Positions 30,334 through 41,937 of a stretch of 64,000 nt of DNA are shown here, piece after piece. How positions within the stretch are numbered: position 1 is the first letter of the stretch; every line of letters begins with the position of its first letter. Made by a program: the position numbers and the translations under genes. The notes beneath the pieces are model-generated. The model searched no databases. It was not told where the DNA came from and worked only from the letters and a program-made list of their open reading frames with translations. The stretch is from assembly GCF_001552475.1 (NCBI RefSeq), contig NZ_BCRG01000004.1, positions 62,001-126,000 on the forward strand, written 5' to 3'. The stretch comes from Microbacterium oleivorans NBRC 103075 (GTDB lineage Bacteria > Actinomycetota > Actinomycetes > Actinomycetales > Microbacteriaceae).

Positions 30334-30939
30334 GTGCTCGAGTGGATCCTGGCTGAGTGGATGCAGATCGTCGGATTCGCGACGGGAGCCGCCTGCGTGC
30401 TCCTCGCCGCTCGCCGGAACATCTGGACGTATCCGCTCGGCATCGCCAACAACATCGTCTTCCTCGTCGTCTTCGTGCCAGCGGGGCTGTACGCCGCGGC
30501 GGCGCTGCAGGTCGTCTACCTCGTGCTGGGCGTCCACGGCTGGGTCCGCTGGGCCCGCGGCGTCGAGCAGGACAAGGGCTACATCGCCCGGACGCCGCGC
30601 CGCGTCATCCCGTGGCTCGTGCTCACCGGGATCGGCGGCACGGCCGTGCTCGCGTGGTTCCTCGCGACGTTCACCGACTCGCAGGTGGCGTTGGCGGATG
30701 CCGCGACCACCGCGGCGAGCCTCGTCGCCCAGTACATGCTCAACCGCAAGTGGATCGAGAACTGGTTCGTCTGGATCGGGGTCGACATCGCGTTCGTGGC
30801 GCTCTCGATCGTGACGGGCCTGTGGATCGTCGCGGCGCTCTACGTCCTGTTCATCGGGCTCTGCGTCGGCGGGTACATCGGCTGGCGGCGCGTCGAGCGG
30901 ACGTCGGCTCCTGACGAGGTTGCGGCCACGCGTGTCTGA
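30334..30939 (+). CDS. pnuC: Nicotinamide riboside/mononucleotide transporter, PnuC family
   Basis: A 201-residue membrane protein with six or seven helices. The family signature WTYPLGIANNIVF (about 31-43) and the C-terminal LYVLFIGLCVGGYIGWRRV are present. PnuC proteins let nicotinamide riboside enter, with uptake driven by intracellular phosphorylation. The stop overlaps the start of the NadR-like gene, which would supply that kinase and the adenylyltransferase. Starts at GTG 30334. Confidence 0.92.
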   Translation: MLEWILAEWMQIVGFATGAACVLLAARRNIWTYPLGIANNIVFLVVFVPAGLYAAAALQVVYLVLGVHGWVRWARGVEQDKGYIARTPRRVIPWLVLTGIGGTAVLAWFLATFTDSQVALADAATTAASLVAQYMLNRKWIENWFVWIGVDIAFVALSIVTGLWIVAALYVLFIGLCVGGYIGWRRVERTSAPDEVAATRV

Positions 30940-32014
30940 CACGCGGTTCCGGCACGGCGTCGTGGTGGGAAAGTTCTACCCCCTCCACGCCGGTCACGCC
31001 CACCTCATCCGCTCCGCCGTCCGGCAGTGCGAGCGGGTGACCGTCGAGGTGATCGCCGCCTCGGTCGAATCGATCCCGCTCGCGGAGAGGGCCGCGTGGA
31101 TCCGTGAGGAGCACCCGACGGCGCGGGTCGTCGACCTGCTCGACGACACCCCCGTGGACTTCGCATCCGAGACCGCGTGGGACGCGCACACCGCGACCAT
31201 CGCCGGGCTCCTCGACGCACCCGCGGACGCGGTCTTCACCTCGGACCCCTACGGCCAGGAACTCGCTCGTCGCCTCGGTGCGACGTGGGTGCAGGTCGAC
31301 CCGGGTCGGCGGCACAACCCCGTCTCCGGGACGGCGATCCGCGCCGACGTCGCCGCGCACTGGCACGAGCTCGCCCCCGCCGCGCGCGCCTCGCTCGCGG
31401 CGCGCGTCGTCGTGCTCGGCGCCGAGTCCACGGGGTCCACGACCCTGGCTGCGGCGCTCGCCGCCGAGCTGGGCACGATGTGGGTGCCGGAGTACGGGCG
31501 CGAGTACTCCGAGATCCGCGTCGGCGGCCTCGACGCCCCGTGGCGCAGCGACGAGTTCGATCTGGTCGTCGACCGGCAGATCGCGATGGAGGATGCCGCC
31601 CTCCGCCGCGTCCCGACGCCGGTGCTCGTCTGCGACACCGACGTGCTCGCCACCGCGCTGTGGCACGAGCGATACGTGGGGTCTCCGGCCCCCGGCATCC
31701 GTCGTCGGGCGGACGGCCACCGGCCGGCGCTGTACGTGCTGACCGGCGACGAGATCCCGTTCGTACAGGACGGCATGCGCGACGGCGAGCACATCCGCCA
31801 CGCGATGCAGCGCCGCTTCCGCGAGGTGCTCGCCGAGCAGCCGGTGCCGTGGCTGGAAGTGCGCGGCTCGGTCGCCGAGCGGGTCGCCGCGGCGCTTCCC
31901 GCCGTCCGCGACGCGACGGCGCGCGCGACGTCGTTCGCGGCTCCGCTCGAAGGGCGTCCGCTCGCCGAGCAGGAGGCCCTGCGCGGTGGCCGGGGCGGCG
32001 ACGCACCCCGTTAG
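30932..32014 (+). CDS. nadR: NadR-like NMN adenylyltransferase / ribosylnicotinamide kinase
   Basis: A 360-residue two-domain NAD salvage protein. The N-terminal adenylyltransferase carries GKFYPLHAGH (13-22) with the HxGH motif. The C-terminal kinase-like domain starts near 155 with the P-loop-like GAESTGSTT (163-171), where the usual Lys is Ser169. Other kinase features are VPEYGREYSEIR and VCDTDVLATALWHERY. It lacks the DNA-binding domain of enterobacterial NadR. GTG 30932 overlaps the pnuC stop. It should convert nicotinamide riboside to NMN and NAD. The next gene follows after nine bases. Confidence 0.88.
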   Translation: MSDTRFRHGVVVGKFYPLHAGHAHLIRSAVRQCERVTVEVIAASVESIPLAERAAWIREEHPTARVVDLLDDTPVDFASETAWDAHTATIAGLLDAPADAVFTSDPYGQELARRLGATWVQVDPGRRHNPVSGTAIRADVAAHWHELAPAARASLAARVVVLGAESTGSTTLAAALAAELGTMWVPEYGREYSEIRVGGLDAPWRSDEFDLVVDRQIAMEDAALRRVPTPVLVCDTDVLATALWHERYVGSPAPGIRRRADGHRPALYVLTGDEIPFVQDGMRDGEHIRHAMQRRFREVLAEQPVPWLEVRGSVAERVAAALPAVRDATARATSFAAPLEGRPLAEQEALRGGRGGDAPR

Positions 32015-32023
32015 GCTGGCGCG

Positions 32024-33595
32024 ATGGCGGACCGCTGGCACAAGCTCTCGGAATCACCCACGACGAGCGCAGCGGATGCCGGTGTCGCACCGCTCACCGC
32101 GGATGACCTCTTCCGCGCCCCCGGTCGTGCCGAGGCTCCCGCGCTGGACGAGAAGGCCCGTCGGGCGTACTACTGGATCGTCAACCGCGCGGTCATCTCG
32201 CCGTACTACGACATCGAGTTCTCCGACGGCGACCCGCTGACCTTCGGGGTGGGGGATGCCGGGGCGGAGATCACCCTCCCCACGCAGCCGTCGTTCTCCT
32301 CGAACATCCTGCTTCCGCTCCTGACGTTCGTCGTCGGCGGCAAGTGCCTGCTCATCGGCGGTCCTGGTCGCGGCAAGACGACCGTCGCGGTCCTCATGGG
32401 GGTGCTCGCCGGTTCCCCCGCGCACGACGTCCGCCGCGGCGTGCAGCAGGGTCAGCCGCAGCTCACGATCAGCGACCTCGTCGGCATCCCGCTGCCCCGT
32501 GACCTCGTGCAGGCGGAGTCGCTGGCCGAGATCGGGATCGCATGGCGGGACTGGCTCACCCGGCCGGTGAAGATCGTCGACGAGTACAACCGCATCCCCA
32601 CGAAGACGCAGTCCGCGCTCCTGACGATGGTCGCCGAGGGGTACGTCGAAAGCCACGACCAGATGCGTCGGACCGCCCCCGCGTCAGGCGTGGAGAGCTG
32701 GTTCTTCACTGCGAACGACGACGCGGGCGGCGGCACGTTCCCCGTCATCCAGGCGCTTCGCGATCGCATGGACGTGACCGTTCCTGCCGCGGGGTTCAAC
32801 AGCCGGTTCTTCGATGAGCTCGTCGCCCGCGTCGAGGCAGGGGACAAGCCCGAGGAGCACGTTCCGGAGGAACTCATCTTCGACGGCGACGAGCAGACGC
32901 GGATGCGGGCTGCGGTCAGAGCCGTGCCTGTTCCGGATGCCGTGCGTCGCCGCCTCGAGTTCTTCTTCAGTCACTTCGAGTTCGTCCAGGGCGGCGGGCG
33001 CCGGTTCGAGTACCGGACGAAGGACACCGTGACGACGGCGGGCGGACGCGTACCCGAGGTCATCGAGTCCAACTCCGGAGCCGACCTCACCGCCGACCTC
33101 GGCGCCCAGACGACGAACGGTCTGTCGGTGCGGGCGCTGCAGACGCTCATCCTCTACGCCAAGGCGATGGCGTGGTTCCGTGGCCGGGCGGCGGTCGAGA
33201 TCGCCGACGTCGCCGCGATCCTGCCGTTCGTCCTCCGCGGCAAGCTGCTGCCCAATCCGACGCATCCGCGGTTCGACGTGGGAGCCGAGCGGGAGCTCGC
33301 GACCGACGTGTCCAGCTGGCTCAGCGACATGTTCGCCGAATCCTGCCGCCAGTTCGAGGCCCTCGGCCGGGGCCAGGAGGACCCGGTCCACGCGATGCTC
33401 GCCGACCTCGACCGCGGTCTCGACGGTGTCAGTGCCGTCGACGCCTCACGCCGCCTCACCGAGGTCGAGGCGCGGATCCGCGCGATCGCGGCGACGGGCA
33501 AGCTCTACGGGCGCGACTTCGATGACCTCGTGACGCTCAAATACCTCCACCAGCGCTACACCGCCTACGTGCGGTGGGCGGAGCGACGCGCGTGA
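32024..33595 (+). CDS. MoxR-type AAA+ ATPase
   Basis: A 523-residue AAA+ ATPase, longer than usual MoxR proteins (about 330). Walker A is GGPGRGKT (112-119) and Walker B is KIVDEYNRI with D186-E187. Sensor-like FFTANDDAGGGTFPVIQAL and an arginine-containing ALRDRMDV follow. MoxR ATPases act as chaperones with von Willebrand factor A partners, and the partner is two genes downstream. The C-terminal 180 residues are an extra helical region with a GKLLPNPTHPRF segment. First gene of the five-gene run; its TGA overlaps the next GTG. Confidence 0.88.
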   Translation: MADRWHKLSESPTTSAADAGVAPLTADDLFRAPGRAEAPALDEKARRAYYWIVNRAVISPYYDIEFSDGDPLTFGVGDAGAEITLPTQPSFSSNILLPLLTFVVGGKCLLIGGPGRGKTTVAVLMGVLAGSPAHDVRRGVQQGQPQLTISDLVGIPLPRDLVQAESLAEIGIAWRDWLTRPVKIVDEYNRIPTKTQSALLTMVAEGYVESHDQMRRTAPASGVESWFFTANDDAGGGTFPVIQALRDRMDVTVPAAGFNSRFFDELVARVEAGDKPEEHVPEELIFDGDEQTRMRAAVRAVPVPDAVRRRLEFFFSHFEFVQGGGRRFEYRTKDTVTTAGGRVPEVIESNSGADLTADLGAQTTNGLSVRALQTLILYAKAMAWFRGRAAVEIADVAAILPFVLRGKLLPNPTHPRFDVGAERELATDVSSWLSDMFAESCRQFEALGRGQEDPVHAMLADLDRGLDGVSAVDASRRLTEVEARIRAIAATGKLYGRDFDDLVTLKYLHQRYTAYVRWAERRA

Positions 33596-34230
33596 TCACA
33601 CGACCCGGGCACCTCGCCGCTGCGCCGGCCGCGCCCGCGTCGCCGCCGCGCGTCGAGGGAATGGATCTCGACCTCGCCGGCCGCAACGTCGCCGCGGCGG
33701 GCGGCGACCCACGCGTGTTCGCGGCGTCGTTCGCCGCGGGAGTCGCGGAGGCTCCCGAGGCGGACGCCGTCGCCCTCGCCGGCATCGCCGCGTGGCGGGC
33801 GGGTGCCCTCGCCTTCCGCGACGACGCCCTCCGTCGCCTCGACGGCCTGTCGCAGACGCATCCGGATGCCGCTGCCGCCGCGCTCGGGCTGGATCGAGCG
33901 GACCTCGACGCGTTCCTCGAGGCGCAGCGCGGGGATCGGTTCTGGTGGCCGGGGCGGGCGGCATCCCGCGGGTACGTCTGCGCCGTCGGCGGATTCGTCG
34001 GCCTCGGCGGCGTGTGGGTGGCGCCACCGGCGGAGTCGGTCGCGCTCGCCGATCCGGGGGCCTTCGGCATCCGGACGGGTGACGAGTGGTGGCGGCTCGA
34101 CGCCGACGTGTGGGGGGCGCGGATCCGCCCGCTCGACGAGCCTCCCGAGGCGGGACCCGGGGGAGCGGCATCCGTCATCTGCTTCCCGGACTCCTACCTG
34201 GCGTGGGTCCACGTGAGGGATGCCGCGTGA
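33592..34230 (+). CDS. Hypothetical protein in MoxR-vWA operon
   Basis: A 212-residue protein translated from GTG 33592, overlapping the AAA ATPase stop by four bases. The first half is Ala-rich and helical; the second half has Trp-rich segments: DRFWWPGR, VCAVGGFVGLGGVWVAPP, WWRLDADVWGARI and SYLAWVHV. There is no signal peptide. MoxR-vWA gene pairs often carry a small third component of unknown fold, and this fits that place, but I do not recognise the family. Confidence 0.7.
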   Translation: MITRPGHLAAAPAAPASPPRVEGMDLDLAGRNVAAAGGDPRVFAASFAAGVAEAPEADAVALAGIAAWRAGALAFRDDALRRLDGLSQTHPDAAAAALGLDRADLDAFLEAQRGDRFWWPGRAASRGYVCAVGGFVGLGGVWVAPPAESVALADPGAFGIRTGDEWWRLDADVWGARIRPLDEPPEAGPGGAASVICFPDSYLAWVHVRDAA

Positions 34231-36068
34231 GCGCTGTGGCGACGACGCCGCTCGAGGGTGAGACGCGGCACGCGTGGGAGAGCGCGCTCGAACTCTGGGG
34301 CGTGCACCTGCGCGACGTGCGCCTCGCTCCCGGCGAAGGGGCGGCGAAGGGCACCGCCGCCTGGTTCTCGTTCCCGCCATCGGTGACCGTCGACCCGCAG
34401 ATGCTCCGCACCTGGGGCGTGGAGCGCGAGGCCGAGAGCATGTTCGCGCACGAGATCGGTCATCACGTCCTGGCACCGGCGACCCGGATCGATGCGCTGA
34501 AGATCCGGCATCAGCTCGCTCGCACGCTCGCCGCGGCCGGCGCGGACCCGGTTTCGAGCGACGACCTCGGTCTGCTGTCGAACCTCTGGACCGATCTGCT
34601 CGTCAACGCCCGCGTCGCTCTGCTGCAGCGGCGCCGGGGTGACGCGGAGCCGGTCGGGATCGTGCGTCTCGTGCAGGCGACGCTGCCTGCGCCCGAGAGC
34701 GCGGATCGCCTCTGGTGGGTGTACCTGCGCACCTTCGAACTGATCTGGGGTCTTCCCGCCGGACGCCTCTGCCCGACCAGTCCGCCCCCGCCTGCTCCGC
34801 CGGCGGCCCGCGGGGCCGAGTCGGAGCCACCGCTCGACAGCATCCCCGAGAAGCACCGCGAGAAGGAGCGGGCCTTGCGCGATGCGCGCCGGGAGCGCGA
34901 ACGCATCGCCGCGGAACTCGCGGGCGTCATCACGACCCGACCAGAAGTGGATGCCGACCAGATCGCCGCGGTCGTGCGCGCGTTCGCGGGCGACCCGGTG
35001 CTCGGGGCACTGCGGTTCGGCGTGCTGACGGCCCCGTACCTCGTCGAGCGGCAACGATCCGCTCGCCCGCAGAGCGGCAACGGAGCGGGCTGCGCCGCCG
35101 ACGACGCGCCCGCGAGCGCGGAGGAGCTCGGCCGCATCCTCTCTGACCGAAGGCTCCACGAAGTGGTCCCCGCGCATCCCAGCTCGAGCGGGCCCGGGGC
35201 GGCCGCACCCGCGACCGGCAGCGGCGAGGGTCGCGGCCAGGCTCTGGGGCTCGCCCACACGCTCGCTCTCTACGGCGCGAGCGACCCCGACGAGGTCATC
35301 GCCGCGTGGTACCGCGCCGAGGCGGCGCCCTGGGTGCGTCCGTTGACGCAGCTGATGCCCGCGGTCCCCGCGCCCGACCTGCCCGGCCCGCTGGAGCTGT
35401 GGGAGGCGGGCGACGACCTCGCCGACCTCGATTGGCCGGCGACCCTGCAGGCCGGTGCAACGGTTCTCCCCGGGGTCACGACGCGTCGACGCTCTTTTTT
35501 GCCTGACGAACCGATACCCCGCGAGGCCAGCATCACGCTCGACGTCTTCATCGACTCGTCCGGGTCGATGCCGCGCCCGGAGCGAGGGTCGTCCGCCGTG
35601 CTCGCCGGAATGATCGTGGCGCTGTCGGTGCTGCGAGGCGGTGGTCGAGTGCGGGTCACGAGCTTCTCGGGAGCGGGCCAGGTCGCCGGCTCCGAGGACT
35701 TCCAGCGCACCGTCCCCGGTGTCGTGCGCGATCTCGCCTGCTACTTCGGCGGCGGGACGACGTTCCCGCTCGACCTTCTCGAGCGGCGCTACGCCGACCT
35801 CCGCCCGCCGCTCCCCGACGAGCGACGGCACCTCCTCGTCCTGTCGGACGACGGCCTGGTGTCGATGTTCGGAGACGGCAACGATGCGTTCGCCGGTGTG
35901 GCGGCGCGGGTCCGTCCGCTGCTGACGACCGCGACGCTCCTGCTCTCGGTGCGCTCCGACCATGTCGACGCCCAGGCTGCCGCCGCGGGATACGACGTCC
36001 TGCACGTGAAGACGATGGATGAGGCGCCCGCCGCGTGCGCTCGACTGGCGGAGGTCCTGCATGGCTGA
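34227..36068 (+). CDS. vWA domain protein with N-terminal HExxH metallopeptidase-like region
   Basis: A 613-residue protein joining two elements. Near the N-terminus FAHEIGHHVLAP has HEIGH at 75-79, a zincin signature. The C-terminal vWA domain has the full MIDAS: DSSGS with D443, S445, S447, then GGGTT (508-512) and LSDDG (539-543). The middle contains a Pro-rich linker (about 190) and a charged coiled coil (about 205-235). vWA proteins pair with MoxR ATPases in metal-dependent remodelling of targets. The HExxH element suggests a protease or zinc-binding role. GTG 34227 overlaps the previous stop; its own end overlaps the next ATG. Confidence 0.85.
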   Translation: MSAVATTPLEGETRHAWESALELWGVHLRDVRLAPGEGAAKGTAAWFSFPPSVTVDPQMLRTWGVEREAESMFAHEIGHHVLAPATRIDALKIRHQLARTLAAAGADPVSSDDLGLLSNLWTDLLVNARVALLQRRRGDAEPVGIVRLVQATLPAPESADRLWWVYLRTFELIWGLPAGRLCPTSPPPPAPPAARGAESEPPLDSIPEKHREKERALRDARRERERIAAELAGVITTRPEVDADQIAAVVRAFAGDPVLGALRFGVLTAPYLVERQRSARPQSGNGAGCAADDAPASAEELGRILSDRRLHEVVPAHPSSSGPGAAAPATGSGEGRGQALGLAHTLALYGASDPDEVIAAWYRAEAAPWVRPLTQLMPAVPAPDLPGPLELWEAGDDLADLDWPATLQAGATVLPGVTTRRRSFLPDEPIPREASITLDVFIDSSGSMPRPERGSSAVLAGMIVALSVLRGGGRVRVTSFSGAGQVAGSEDFQRTVPGVVRDLACYFGGGTTFPLDLLERRYADLRPPLPDERRHLLVLSDDGLVSMFGDGNDAFAGVAARVRPLLTTATLLLSVRSDHVDAQAAAAGYDVLHVKTMDEAPAACARLAEVLHG

Positions 36069-36672
36069 ATCCGAAGCACTGCTGTCGGCGTGGTCGGCAT
36101 CCGCTCCCCCCGAGGGTCACGCCTGGCAGGCGACCGTCCCCGGCCCGGCGCTCGCCGCCGTTGCGGCGCGGATGGCGAGCGTGCCGCGCTCGTTCCTCGA
36201 TCCGCGCGTCTCCGTCGCCGCGCTCGCCGGCGACGTCGTCCGCCAGCGCCTCCTCTCTCTCGACCACGAGTCCGATGACAGGGTCCGGCGCGGTGCCGCC
36301 GTCGGCCTGTGGCTCGTGGCGAGCGAAGACCTCGTCGAGCCGTTCACCCCGTCGATCGCCGCAGCAGCGGGTGTCGGGCGCGCGATCGACGCCCTCGCGC
36401 TCCGGCTCGCGCCCGTCGTCGACCCGTGGGAGTGGCTGTCCGACGACGAGCGTCGGGAGGAGGCCGTCCGCACGTTCCTCCTCTGGGCGGGGATGCGGCC
36501 CGCCGAAGAGGACGTCGACACCGCCCGCAGCCTGCTCGACGCCCGTGACTCGCTCCGCCGAAACGCCGCGCTCGCGCAGGCCTACGCCGCGCACCGGCAT
36601 CGCGACGAGATCGCCCGCCGCCTCGCCGAGGCCCGTGCGAAGGAGGCCGCGGCGAGGTATTCGAGTGAGTGA
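36061..36672 (+). CDS. All-helical hypothetical protein in MoxR-vWA operon
   Basis: A 203-residue soluble protein from ATG 36061, overlapping the vWA gene end by eight bases. It is Ala/Arg/Leu-rich and predicted almost entirely helical, with segments such as RVRRGAAVGLWLVASEDLV and RRNAALAQAYAAHRHRDEIA resembling stacked helical repeats. No catalytic motif is seen. Its position inside a strictly coupled operon argues it is a structural or adaptor partner. Family not recognised. Confidence 0.7.
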   Translation: MAESEALLSAWSASAPPEGHAWQATVPGPALAAVAARMASVPRSFLDPRVSVAALAGDVVRQRLLSLDHESDDRVRRGAAVGLWLVASEDLVEPFTPSIAAAAGVGRAIDALALRLAPVVDPWEWLSDDERREEAVRTFLLWAGMRPAEEDVDTARSLLDARDSLRRNAALAQAYAAHRHRDEIARRLAEARAKEAAARYSSE

Positions 36673-38014
36673 CCCCGACGACGGCCTCACCCTCGCCGAG
36701 TACGCCCCGGGTTCGGCGGCGGTCCTGACGGACGCCGAGCGCTGGCCGACGATGGATGCCGCCGGTGCCGCGCGGCTCGACCGGTGGAGACGGCATCCTT
36801 TCGCTCCCGACTGGGTGCACGCGACCGGCGACCGGCTCACGGCTGAGATGGTCGAGCGCACGCGGATGCCGCTGTCGACGAACGGCTGGCTCGAGGAGCA
36901 CCTCACGACCGCCCGGAACCTGCTCGCCTACCGGGGACGTGACGGCCTGGTGTCGCTCGCCGACTTCCCGCCGATCACGCGCCAGCACCTCGTCGACGAT
37001 CTCGCGTCGTTCGTCCCGCTCGACGCGGACCTCGATCGGATGCTGCACGGCACGAGCTCCGGGTCGACGGGAGCGGCGCTCCTCATCCCCGACGATGTCG
37101 AAGAGGTCGCCCGCGGCTTCCACCTGATGGTGTCGCTCGTCCGGGCGCAGGGGATCGATTGGGTTCCCGACGGGGAGCGGTTCGCCGTGGCATCCGTCGT
37201 CTTCCAGCGTCAGGCGTTCACGTACGTCTCGCTCGTCAGCGGCTTCGCGCACCGCGCCATGGCACGGCTCAACCTCGACACGGGGGTGTGGCGGACGCCG
37301 TCGGACCGCACCGACTTTCTGCGGGATGCCGACCCCCAGGTCATCTCGGGGCACCCGACCAGCCTCGCCGAACTGCTGAGCCCCGACCTCCGCGGGGCGG
37401 TCCGTCCGCTCGCCCTCTTCTCCAGCGCGATGTCGCTGTCAGGGCCCCTCCGTGCCGACCTCGAGGACGCGTTCGGATGCCCCGTCTTCGACGTCTACGG
37501 TCTGCACGAAACGCGTCAGATCGCCGTCCGCACCGACGACGGCCCGTTCCGCGTGCTCGATCGGCGGGTGCACGTCGAGATCCTCGACTCTGCCGGGGAA
37601 GTGCTGCCGGAGGGCGAACGGGGCGAGATCACCGTGACGGCGGGAGAGAACCCGCTCCTCCCGCTCGTTCGATACCGAACGGGCGACGTCGGTCGTCTCG
37701 TGCGGCTCGCCGACGGCGGTATCGGGATCGCCGACCTCGAAGGCCGTGAGAACACGGTCTTCCTCGGCTCAGACGGGCGCCGAGTGCCGTGCGTCGATCT
37801 GACGCAGCAGTTGCAGACGCACGGCGCACGGGGGTGGAGCATCGTCCAGGCCGTGGACGGCAGCGTCGCCGCCGAGATCGTCGGTGGGGATGCCGGGGCA
37901 GTCGACCGCACCCTCCGCGCCCTCCTGAATCAGCCCGTCGCGGTGACGCGGCACGAGCGGCTCATCGACCTCGGCGAGGGCAAACCACGCCGCTATCGCA
38001 GCGCCGCCGGGTGA
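36665..38014 (+). CDS. PaaK/F390-synthetase-like adenylate-forming enzyme
   Basis: A 449-residue member of the ANL (acyl/aryl-CoA ligase) superfamily, phenylacetate-CoA ligase branch. The phosphate loop is GTSSGSTGAALL (about 128-139). The A5 motif is VYGLHETRQ, the A7 Asp is in YRTGDVGRL, and the C-terminal Lys is in EGKPRRYR. All core catalytic positions appear present, so it should adenylate a carboxylate or related group; the acceptor may be CoA or something else. GTG 36665 overlaps the preceding stop by eight bases. No phenylacetate pathway gene is near, so a role tied to the MoxR-vWA proteins is inferred. Confidence 0.83.
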   Translation: MSDPDDGLTLAEYAPGSAAVLTDAERWPTMDAAGAARLDRWRRHPFAPDWVHATGDRLTAEMVERTRMPLSTNGWLEEHLTTARNLLAYRGRDGLVSLADFPPITRQHLVDDLASFVPLDADLDRMLHGTSSGSTGAALLIPDDVEEVARGFHLMVSLVRAQGIDWVPDGERFAVASVVFQRQAFTYVSLVSGFAHRAMARLNLDTGVWRTPSDRTDFLRDADPQVISGHPTSLAELLSPDLRGAVRPLALFSSAMSLSGPLRADLEDAFGCPVFDVYGLHETRQIAVRTDDGPFRVLDRRVHVEILDSAGEVLPEGERGEITVTAGENPLLPLVRYRTGDVGRLVRLADGGIGIADLEGRENTVFLGSDGRRVPCVDLTQQLQTHGARGWSIVQAVDGSVAAEIVGGDAGAVDRTLRALLNQPVAVTRHERLIDLGEGKPRRYRSAAG

Positions 38015-40125: not shown

Positions 40126-41937
40126 TCAGTTCGCGTGGTGTCCGACGATCGCCGCGCGGATGCGGTCGACCGGGATCTTCGGGGTCCGCTCGTCCGTGAC
40201 GAGGCCGTTCGTCTCCTGCAGCGTGTCGGCCAGCTGCGTGTAGCAGAAGCCGGCGAGAGCCTCGCTAGCGTGGACGGCGGCCATCAGCCCCTCGAAGCGC
40301 TCCGCGAAGTCGTCGGGTGAGGTCGCGGAGGAATACCCCCACGCGCCGTCGGCCGCCGACGTGTCGAACGAGATGCCGCCGAACTCCGTGAGCATGACGG
40401 GCGCCTGCGAGACGTCGCCGCTGAGGATCAGTGCCCGACCGGCGGGGCCGACCGAGTCGATGAGACGGCGGATGTCGGCATCCGTCGCGTACCGCTGCCG
40501 GACGACGTCCGGACGCCACTCGTAGTCATGGATCGCGACGATGTCGGTGTCGACCTGCTCCCACCCGTCGTTCGAGACGACGGGTCGTGTGGGATCGAGG
40601 GCCTTCGTGAGCGAGACGAGCGAGCGGGCGAAGTGCTGCATGCGCGGGTCGGCAGCGATGTGCTGCACGCCCCAGCTCTCGTTGAGCGGTACCCACGTCA
40701 CGATCGAGGGGTGCGACATGTCGCGGCGGACCACCTCGAGCCATTCCCGCGTCGTCCGCTCGATGGCGGTCGGGGTGAAGGTGTAGGTGCCGGGCGCCTC
40801 GCCCCAGACGAGCAGGCCGAGCTGATCGGCGGCCAGGAGGAAGCGCGGGTCCTCGAACTTCTGGTGAACGCGTGTCGCGTTGAAGCCGAGTGATCTGATC
40901 AGCTCGGCCTCGTCGCGGAGCGCTTCCGCGGACGGAGCCGCGAGGTGAGATTCGGGCCAGTAGCCCTGATTGAGGACGGACCGTACGTAGTACGGCCGGT
41001 CATTCAGCCAGAACCGTCCTCGGGCGACATGGGCGGTGCGGATGCCGAGGTACGAGTACACGACGTCGTCACCCACCCGCACCTCTGCGTCGAGCAGCCG
41101 CGGATTCTCCGGCGACCAGAGGAGTTCCTCGTAGGACTGACCGTTGCGGAGTTCGGCGATCGGGATGACGACGGTCGTCTCGCGGTCGGTGGCGACGGCG
41201 CTGACCGCCGCGAGCTCGCGACCGTCGAAGGACACGGAGATCGTCGCCTCCGTGCCGGTAGTCGGACGCACCGACAACTCGATGTCAGCGGTCACGATGC
41301 CGGCGCGGGGATCCGCGGTCCACCTGAGCGCGGTGATGTGGACGGCGGGGACGCTCTCGAGCCAGACCGGCTGCCAGATCCCCGTCGTGCGGTGGTACCA
41401 GATGGCGTGCGGGTGCTCCCGCCAGTCCTGTTTTCCGCGGGGCTGCGAGATGTCGAGCGGGTCGTCCTCCGCACGCACGACGATCCGAGCACCTTCGCGC
41501 GCCGAGCCGGTGATGTCCAACGCGAACGGTGTGTGGCCGCCCTCGTGCGATCCGGCGAGCTGCCCGTCGACCCACACGTCGCAGCGGTAGTCGACAGCGC
41601 CGAAGTTCAGCAGGAGGCGACGGCCCGCAGCGTGGCCGGCACCGGCGAGGTCCGCGGTGGTGAGGTCTCGCGAGTACCAGACGACGCGGTGCATCCCGGT
41701 GTCGCCGACGCCGGAGGCCGACGACTCAGGAGGGAAGGGGACGACGATGTCGCGTTCCGAGACACCGGCTGACGACCACCCTGAGGCGATGCCCTCGTCC
41801 GCATCGTCGTACGCGAACGACCAGGTGCCGCAGAGGTCCGTCCAGGCCGACCGGAGGAGTTGGGGCCGGGGGTAGGTGCCGTCTTGCGTGCTGGCGCGCA
41901 CGGCGGTGTGGTCGTCGTCGATCATGGCGTCCAGCAT
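40126..41937 (-). CDS. Glycoside hydrolase family 2 protein
   Basis: A 603-residue cytoplasmic enzyme with three GH2 parts: a jelly-roll sugar-binding domain (SHEGGHTPFALDIT, WYHRTTGIWQPVWLE), an immunoglobulin-like domain, and a TIM barrel. The acid/base Glu is in VPLNESWG and the nucleophile Glu in MLTEFGG. GH2 includes beta-galactosidases, beta-glucuronidases and related activities; the neighbours (GH43 enzyme, sugar importer) suggest a plant oligosaccharide substrate. It is the last gene of the leftward LacI-GH2 pair. ATG 41925 is an alternative start. A LacI-type operator lies 11 bases upstream. Confidence 0.88.
   Translation of the reverse strand: MLDAMIDDDHTAVRASTQDGTYPRPQLLRSAWTDLCGTWSFAYDDADEGIASGWSSAGVSERDIVVPFPPESSASGVGDTGMHRVVWYSRDLTTADLAGAGHAAGRRLLLNFGAVDYRCDVWVDGQLAGSHEGGHTPFALDITGSAREGARIVVRAEDDPLDISQPRGKQDWREHPHAIWYHRTTGIWQPVWLESVPAVHITALRWTADPRAGIVTADIELSVRPTTGTEATISVSFDGRELAAVSAVATDRETTVVIPIAELRNGQSYEELLWSPENPRLLDAEVRVGDDVVYSYLGIRTAHVARGRFWLNDRPYYVRSVLNQGYWPESHLAAPSAEALRDEAELIRSLGFNATRVHQKFEDPRFLLAADQLGLLVWGEAPGTYTFTPTAIERTTREWLEVVRRDMSHPSIVTWVPLNESWGVQHIAADPRMQHFARSLVSLTKALDPTRPVVSNDGWEQVDTDIVAIHDYEWRPDVVRQRYATDADIRRLIDSVGPAGRALILSGDVSQAPVMLTEFGGISFDTSAADGAWGYSSATSPDDFAERFEGLMAAVHASEALAGFCYTQLADTLQETNGLVTDERTPKIPVDRIRAAIVGHHAN

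Follow-up and report, generated by a model that had tools for sequence, protein, structure and literature searches.

What does a MoxR-type ATPase act on when it is encoded, together with its von Willebrand factor A (vWA) partner, in one run of genes with a nicotinamide riboside transporter and an adenylate-forming enzyme? Machines built from MoxR and vWA proteins are widespread and, to our knowledge, neither the client nor the trigger is known for most of them. The question is raised here by a locus of Microbacterium oleivorans NBRC 103075 (contig NZ_BCRG01000004.1), of which a stretch of 64,000 nucleotides, hereafter called the window, was analysed; all coordinates count from the start of this window. 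Seven genes, pnuC, nadR and five that we designate A to E, follow one another there on the forward strand. Our comparisons strongly support A to E as a conserved unit, and we tentatively favour the reading that the seven genes specify a horizontally moving, ATP-driven maturation or modification module that is coupled to pyridine-nucleotide salvage.

The run opens with the gene for PnuC (30334..30939), identified as a nicotinamide riboside transporter by its match to TIGR01528 (71.3 bits, above the cut-off of 42.45). The next gene (30932..32014) overlaps it by 8 bases, stops 9 bases 5' of A and encodes a two-domain NadR-like protein that combines a nicotinamide mononucleotide (NMN) adenylyltransferase, with the motif GKFYPLHAGH, and a kinase-type domain. 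The five genes that follow encode a MoxR-type AAA+ ATPase (A, 32024..33595), a possible adaptor assigned to no family (B, 33592..34230), a protein with a zincin-type N-terminal part and a C-terminal vWA domain (C, 34227..36068), a small helical protein (D, 36061..36672) and a PaaK-like ANL (adenylate-forming) enzyme (E, 36665..38014), with successive overlaps of 4, 4, 8 and 8 bases. An earlier, sequence-only reading of this DNA had proposed the five-gene unit from A to E, and its coordinates, overlaps and genes are correct. The unit was drawn too small, however, because PnuC and the NadR-like protein are encoded in the same gene run, which places the beginning of the unit approximately 1.7 kb upstream of A; also missed were the radical SAM (S-adenosylmethionine) partners found in other phyla.

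Conservation of the five genes was evaluated from both ends of the cassette. A profile of A recovered 447 relatives in a collection holding one genome per species, and the best 80 loci were fetched (fetched loci are cited by L-numbers). Hits to all five proteins were present in 75 of these 80, and the order A-B-C-D-E was collinear in 72; B was detected in 78 loci and D in 76. By their record titles, the cassettes derive from Actinomycetota, Planctomycetota, Limisphaerales, Myxococcota, Gemmatimonas, Spirochaetaceae, Obscuribacterales, Fluviicoccus and Lysobacterales. Contig ends truncate four of the five incomplete loci (L032, L062, L068 and L072), and the fifth, from Lysobacterales (L081), carries A-B-C only, with a radical SAM gene, D and E on another contig of the same genome (L138). 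In two Obscuribacterales loci (L078 and L091), D-E is divergent from A-B-C. A chance operon is rejected by this collinearity, and the five-gene order, whose conservation the sequence-only reading had proposed to check, holds across several phyla.

Since the 80 loci had been picked by A, the reverse test was run with E. Among 247 same-genus genomes, 24 carry an E orthologue (E-values of 1.6e-180 or lower), and the hits in 14 others are of a generic PaaK-like kind, with E-values no better than 1.8e-33. D and C lie directly upstream of E in all 24 cases, whereas neither C nor D was found beside the six generic PaaK-like genes for which loci were available. The candidate explanation that E is an unrelated last gene is thus rejected: the ANL gene is not found mostly away from the other four. 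As had been proposed, two proteins without assignment and an ANL enzyme are inherited together with the MoxR-vWA pair.

Several loci depart from the common layout. The Mycolicibacterium houstonense cassette (L044, 5950-14353) is rearranged: a copy of C precedes A, a fragment of C is present, and D and E each occur twice. A gene placed between A and B in a Planctomycetales locus (L072, 1723-2832) weakly matches nucleoside 2-deoxyribosyltransferase (2e-4, below cut-off). Between C and D, a Spirochaetaceae locus (L088, 13526-15099) carries a cation efflux gene and, on the opposite strand, a ZIP zinc transporter gene, and a myxobacterial locus (L167, 7932-13335) carries approximately 4 kb of extra DNA. 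In L168 (12236-16195), a full cassette is followed by a second, diverged C-D pair and then by NadR and PnuC on the other strand.

The linkage of this cassette to PnuC and NadR is tightest within the genus. The full order PnuC-NadR-A-B-C-D-E is present in 23 of 23 same-genus cassettes for which sequence is available at that position, comprising 5 from one set and 18 from a second, whose nineteenth locus (L213) is cut. A search of 49 same-genus genomes located NadR in exactly the five that carry the cassette and in none of the other 44 (exact p 5e-7, uncorrected for kinship); the presence of 14 of these 49 genomes in the 247-genome E set is deduced from the numbering (35 + 210 + 2 = 247). Within the genus, the seven genes are therefore present or absent together.

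Beyond the genus, proximity was scored in 76 of the 80 loci, after setting aside two second copies (L017 and L025) and two loci of less than 5 kb (L032 and L062). PnuC and/or NadR reside near the cassette in 49 of the 76, and neither is in the fetched flanks of the other 27, which include loci from Mycolicibacterium, Agreia, Schumannella and the Rhodococcus/Pseudonocardiales group. Where the genes are linked, their placement varies: PnuC-NadR lies immediately 3' of E in Pseudomonadota (L197 and L198), NadR is at the E end in Spirochaetota (L088), PnuC is 3' of E in Planctomycetota (L147), and in Myxococcota the genes follow the cassette on the opposite strand (L165 and L168). Both genes are divergent before A in L079, as is PnuC in L087. 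PnuC and/or NadR thus adjoin the cassette in Actinomycetota and four other phyla, in differing arrangements. At least 10 changes in linkage are needed on a 91-row tree of A, which omits L044, L068, L075, L199-L204, loci lacking a long A and loci skipped in the locus scan. In a NadR tree, the actinobacterial cassette NadRs group with a NadR from Miltoncostaea (support 99/97), in which PnuC-NadR occurs on a plasmid with no cassette. A single clade of all 25 cassette NadRs is rejected relative to two cassette-free sequences by an approximately unbiased (AU) test (p-AU 0.0015), in which the group was named after the first tree had been seen and both cassette-free sequences form long branches; the tree used omits L079, which had the longest branch in the first tree, and most close Microbacterium rows.

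These data bear on an alternative that involves no pyridine step. E would activate a small acid and couple it to D or to some other protein, the tagged product would be extracted, refolded or trimmed by A-B-C, and PnuC-NadR would be a passenger that merely shares a transcript or an island. This explanation, which is near to the idea first advanced for the locus, would account for the 27 loci that have no nearby pair, for PnuC-NadR without a cassette on the Miltoncostaea plasmid and for the conserved acidic tail of D described below. A mere passenger is harder to reconcile with NadR in five of five cassette genomes and none of 44 others of the genus, with adjacency in five phyla in differing arrangements, and with cassette NadRs that do not form one clade. 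We consider protein tagging of this kind rather unlikely, and prefer a module that is coupled to pyridine-nucleotide salvage.

The identity of the NadR-like protein is the next issue. Its match to TIGR01526 is extensive (5e-57), but the score of 193.5 bits falls below the cut-off of 341. In addition, the P-loop of its kinase domain (31418..31444) reads GAESTGSTT in translation and lacks the usual Lys, which is present in the two solved NadRs that were compared. This sub-threshold score and the altered P-loop leave the substrate of the enzyme unsure. The Lys is missing from every actinobacterial NadR examined, and it is present in the cassette-linked NadRs of L088, L165, L168, L197 and L198. 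Loss of this residue was considered as a hallmark of the module and rejected, because the cassette-free NadR of Miltoncostaea also shows the loss. The locus resembles a PnuC-NadR salvage pair in having a PnuC above its cut-off and a two-domain NadR-like protein, and differs from the usual pair in being locked to A-E within the genus, in the sub-cut-off score of NadR and in the actinobacterial P-loop.

One could suppose that the whole run is a nicotinamide riboside salvage device, in which A-E sustain the function of PnuC or of the NadR-like enzyme, for instance by remodelling that protein or by substituting for its kinase step. The tight PnuC-NadR-A-E order in actinobacteria is what such a device would display, and the P-loops without Lys suggest that the kinase step may be lost there. 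Nevertheless, the cassette-linked NadRs of the five loci just listed have an intact P-loop, the altered P-loop occurs where there is no cassette, and many cassettes have no nearby pair; we regard this possibility as improbable.

Motifs were counted by pattern in 77 A and C proteins and 75 E proteins, excluding second copies of genomes (L009, L010, L017 and L025) and cut or rearranged loci (L032, L036, L044, L062, L068 and L083). Protein A scores above the Pfam cut-offs for AAA_3 and AAA_lid_2, has 2r44 and ChlI as weak structural relatives, and retains its Walker motifs GGPGRGKT (32357..32380) and DEYNR in all 77 representatives. Protein C carries HEIGHH close to its N-terminus (34449..34466) and the metal-ion-dependent adhesion site (MIDAS) motif DSSGS close to its C-terminus (35553..35567), where the vWA domain forms the last part of the protein; HExxH is conserved in 77 of 77 and the D-x-S-G-S pattern in 75 of 77. 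Neither half of the window C reaches any Pfam cut-off, and VWA_2 was matched by only 4 of 32 C members (best 0.02). Protein E is most similar to PaaK-type enzymes: its family profile finds PaaK structures at 1e-22, it matches the DVU_1553 family of AMP-dependent coenzyme A (CoA) ligases (NF045666) at 3e-20, under the cut-off, it falls just under the cut-off of Pfam AMP-binding, and it reaches 44.3 bits against PaaK TIGR02155, for which the cut-off is 646.3. The core motifs that we take to be A3, A5 and A7 are present in 72, 73 and 71 of the 75 E proteins, the A3-type phosphate loop being TSSGSTG in the window (37052..37072). The C-terminal (A10-type) Lys fits the expected pattern, in a pattern test only, in 67 of 75; it is replaced by Arg in L073, L082, L084 and L085, the tail is short or different in L079, L087 and L088, and L092 is truncated by a contig end. 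A and C thus retain their active-site motifs, and E retains most of its own. The catalytic motifs of the ANL enzyme had been described as intact; across the loci the core motifs are mostly kept, and the C-terminal Lys is replaced or lost in several lineages.

The two remaining proteins are less easily placed. Pfam searches at 0.1 with 32 B and 31 D members gave no consistent family match, and Pfam, NCBIfam and PADLOC together added little for B, C and D. Both proteins are highly variable, with a mean column identity of 24% for B and 32% for D. An AlphaFold model of D is helical, with a final helix of 39 residues (mean predicted local distance difference test score, pLDDT, 96.6), and the model of the B homologue from L086 combines helical repeats with a beta domain (mean pLDDT 95.3). 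Foldseek returned no match at 0.001 for D or for this B homologue. The best VIA-align scores were Z 2.4 for D and Z 8.5 for B, the latter for a match between WD40 blades and residues 194-308 of the L086 protein; as these scores fall in the range that the tool calls common, no fold is claimed for either protein. The C-terminal tail of D (36637..36669) is conserved: in actinobacteria it typically reads (K/R)EAAARYxxE and ends at a nearly fixed position, and the last residue of 92 tails is Glu in 70, Tyr in 11, Val in 6 and Asp in 3.

A further component appears in some phyla. Radical SAM genes are located in or near the cassette in 9 of the 107 locus records (window included) that gave any hit in the locus scan, none of the nine actinobacterial by title or group. 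They occupy the C-D gap in L070, L077 and L197, precede A in L090 and D in L138 (the second half of the L081 genome), and follow E in L078, L091, L145 and L169, the last of which is of a diverged type. Pfam confirms the assignment in L070, L077 and L169, three of the nine being tested, and detects a B12-binding radical SAM gene before A in L140; NCBIfam gave matches for seven of seven genes tested, none above cut-off. Together with the D-E placements in L078, L091 and the L081 genome, these positions indicate that the module splits into an A-B-C part and a D-E part, the latter with or without radical SAM.

Other flanking genes are less informative. Families recurring in at least three lineage groups are generic ones (a response regulator, ABC ATPases, a short-chain dehydrogenase/reductase (SDR) and one that could not be placed), which lie a median of 3 to 7 kb away, and the remaining recurrent families are shadow frames. 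In the window, the next gene upstream of PnuC is a divergent methionine aminopeptidase gene and the next downstream of E is a DEAD-box helicase gene, beyond which a glycoside hydrolase gene, beta-galactosidase-like by eye, lies on the reverse strand (40126-41937). Beside the Limisphaerales cassette (L070, 16355-19485, reverse strand), a second vWA protein and a SWIM-like zinc-finger protein were recognized by eye; the pair resembles what we take to be yehP/yehQ of Escherichia coli.

How such a unit is distributed was estimated with the C profile at 1e-15, with the centre genomes included; a phylum search with A (2 of 396) scored three candidates per genome and was not used for this purpose. 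C was found in 10 of 199 Planctomycetota genomes (5 at 1e-170 or better), in 11 of 140 Myxococcota (6 at 1e-170 or better, each of which carries A-E), in 5 of 146 genomes of the phylum of L091 (one of the full type, with two diverged loci carrying C and D only) and in 12 of 246 Actinomycetota (2 of the full type and 10 of a shorter relative). In the phyla of L070, L090 and L077, the counts were 1 of 135, 3 of 249 and 1 of 121. The cassette is thus rare and scattered. Among 99 loci, the genes that neighbour the window's cassette adjoin it elsewhere only in L016/L215, which represent one genome, and in L217, in a scan for which stretches L210-L228 contain little downstream sequence. No match to the cassette was found in plasmids (searched with A), phages (tblastn of C at 1e-3) or viral contigs (A profile), and a phage, plasmid or viral-contig element is rejected for these collections.

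Three kinds of relative are not included in the full-cassette counts: a two-gene MoxR and zincin-vWA arrangement of one actinobacterial family (L182-L191 and L202-L204), a diverged planctomycete and myxobacterial type (L139-L143 and L169-L173), and the C-D-only loci of the L091 phylum (L199 and L200). Loci L140, L169 and L172 exemplify the second type, in which MoxR, zincin-vWA and an ANL-like enzyme are accompanied by other helical proteins. A CRISPR-like array, in which a 25-base repeat recurs 66 times without change at a spacing of 65-69 bases (L202, 1885-6264), lies approximately 1 kb from a short MoxR and zincin-vWA relative; no such array is present in stretches L203 and L204.

Rare, scattered occurrence in every phylum sampled and flanking genes that differ within a genus are also what one would expect of an anti-phage or inter-bacterial conflict system, in which MoxR-vWA would sense or threshold a threat, E and D would make an effector or signal, and PnuC-NadR would restore nicotinamide adenine dinucleotide (NAD). 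There is a general resemblance to the published MoxR-vWA ternary conflict systems, of VMAP, iSTAND, FtsH and beta-propeller types (Kaur et al. 2020, PMC7159879), in whose operons a MoxR AAA+ ATPase and its vWA chaperone partner are likewise accompanied by additional conserved proteins. One FtsH subtype also has a radical SAM enzyme, as some cassettes do. However, the third component of the FtsH subsystem, with two FtsH-type AAA+ domains, is absent here: no FtsH component was detected by Pfam in A-E or by NCBIfam in PnuC, NadR and both flanking genes. C has no C-terminal beta-propeller, unlike the beta-propeller type, and the P-loop is GGPGRGKT in 77 of 77 A proteins, whereas GXXXTAKS is frequent, though not universal, in the published FtsH and beta-propeller systems. 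One of 32 C members hits fvmX3 (0.063 over 29 residues), and neither VMAP nor inactive STAND was among the Pfam hits (at 0.1) of 32 B, 32 C and 31 D members, with coverage by Pfam models unchecked. The published systems often exchange effector modules, whereas the same A-E recur in 72 of 80 loci, and an ANL enzyme, PnuC and NadR are extra members of the cassette; none of the terms acyl, adenylat, NadR and PnuC occurs in the text of PMC7159879. A relation to these systems, which the sequence-only reading had raised, is therefore not supported: those of their defining features that are testable in the cassette are lacking or returned no match. In addition, PADLOC matches of the five proteins are at chance level only, the collections of phages, viral contigs and plasmids gave no match, and the flanks of a few loci read by eye hold housekeeping-like genes, no defence-gene census having been made. 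A role in conflict is thus unlikely, and the reading of a maturation or modification module remains the one that we develop.

Other known arrangements share parts of the locus. In jumbo phages, a MoxR ATPase is encoded beside a metallopeptidase-vWA co-chaperone as a two-gene pair proposed for virion assembly (PMC7824862). C shares with this co-chaperone the N-terminal metallopeptidase domain and the position beside MoxR; unlike the cassette, the phage pair is not named together with an ANL enzyme, B, D or NAD salvage in the portions of that article used here, and the phage search reported above, a sequence-level comparison only, gave no match to C. E shares its sequence family and its A3/A5/A7-type motifs with PaaK-like and DVU_1553 (NF045666) ligases, and differs from them in falling under every curated cut-off reached, in being tied to a MoxR-vWA operon and in lacking or replacing the C-terminal Lys in some lineages. 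Pfam models of DUF2201, presumably a group of putative metallopeptidase-vWA proteins, matched none of 32 C members at 0.1. In the open-licence PMC literature, we found no article that joins MoxR with PnuC and NadR and none that joins MoxR and vWA with phenylacetate-CoA ligase. No earlier description of the seven-gene set was found in that literature, and the unit itself is strongly supported.

From the gene layout, co-inheritance, PnuC/NadR linkage and conserved motifs established by these comparisons, we infer a substrate, a client and an order of steps. Nicotinamide riboside, or a closely related compound, would enter through PnuC, and the mononucleotide would be adenylylated by the NadR-like enzyme. 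E may use ATP to activate a carboxylate, which could belong to a protein or to a small acid of the aryl or pyridine type, and D, being small and helical and having a conserved C-terminal tail, may serve as carrier or client. A is predicted to form a MoxR ring that works with adaptor B and the zincin-vWA co-chaperone C, whose MIDAS might grip an acidic tail such as that of D. A-B-C would then remodel, load or trim D or a D-bound partner, and a radical SAM step would be added in some phyla. The vWA MIDAS sites of known MoxR-like systems bind acidic residues, and such binding would fit the acidic tail of D.

Several observations weigh against this scheme. No fold match by Foldseek or VIA-align places D or B, 8 of 75 E proteins fail the C-terminal Lys pattern (one being truncated where its contig ends), and clustering of flank families revealed no recurring client enzyme. 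The NadR-like protein falls short of the NCBIfam cut-off, and no actinobacterial example looked at, cassette-free Miltoncostaea included, has Lys in the kinase P-loop. Of the scored loci, 27 of 76 have no PnuC or NadR in their fetched flanks, and the AU test of the NadR clade carries the limits given with it. Two planctomycetes with a close C are also incomplete in the fetched stretch, G747 (L146) having no detectable E and G781 (L148) no detectable D or E.

A bolder version, which we regard as a long shot, is that a cofactor or protein modification of a new kind, derived from a pyridine nucleotide, is made and installed by the module. The pyridine nucleotide would come from PnuC and NadR, E would adenylate its carboxylate or the C-terminus of D, radical SAM enzymes would finish the product in some phyla, and the tail of D would carry it until the MoxR, B and zincin-vWA proteins inserted it into a client, much as chelatase-type MoxR-vWA pairs do. 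The nicotinate-derived nickel-pincer route would be a logical analogue, with unrelated enzymes. If this version is true, the locus would represent a new cofactor or modification pathway. Gene order across phyla and exact co-occurrence in the sampled genus link this MoxR-vWA machine with one ATP-using ligase and with a metabolite route that can be named (nicotinamide riboside, NMN and NAD), and this link makes the question of what the machine targets, and why, directly testable.

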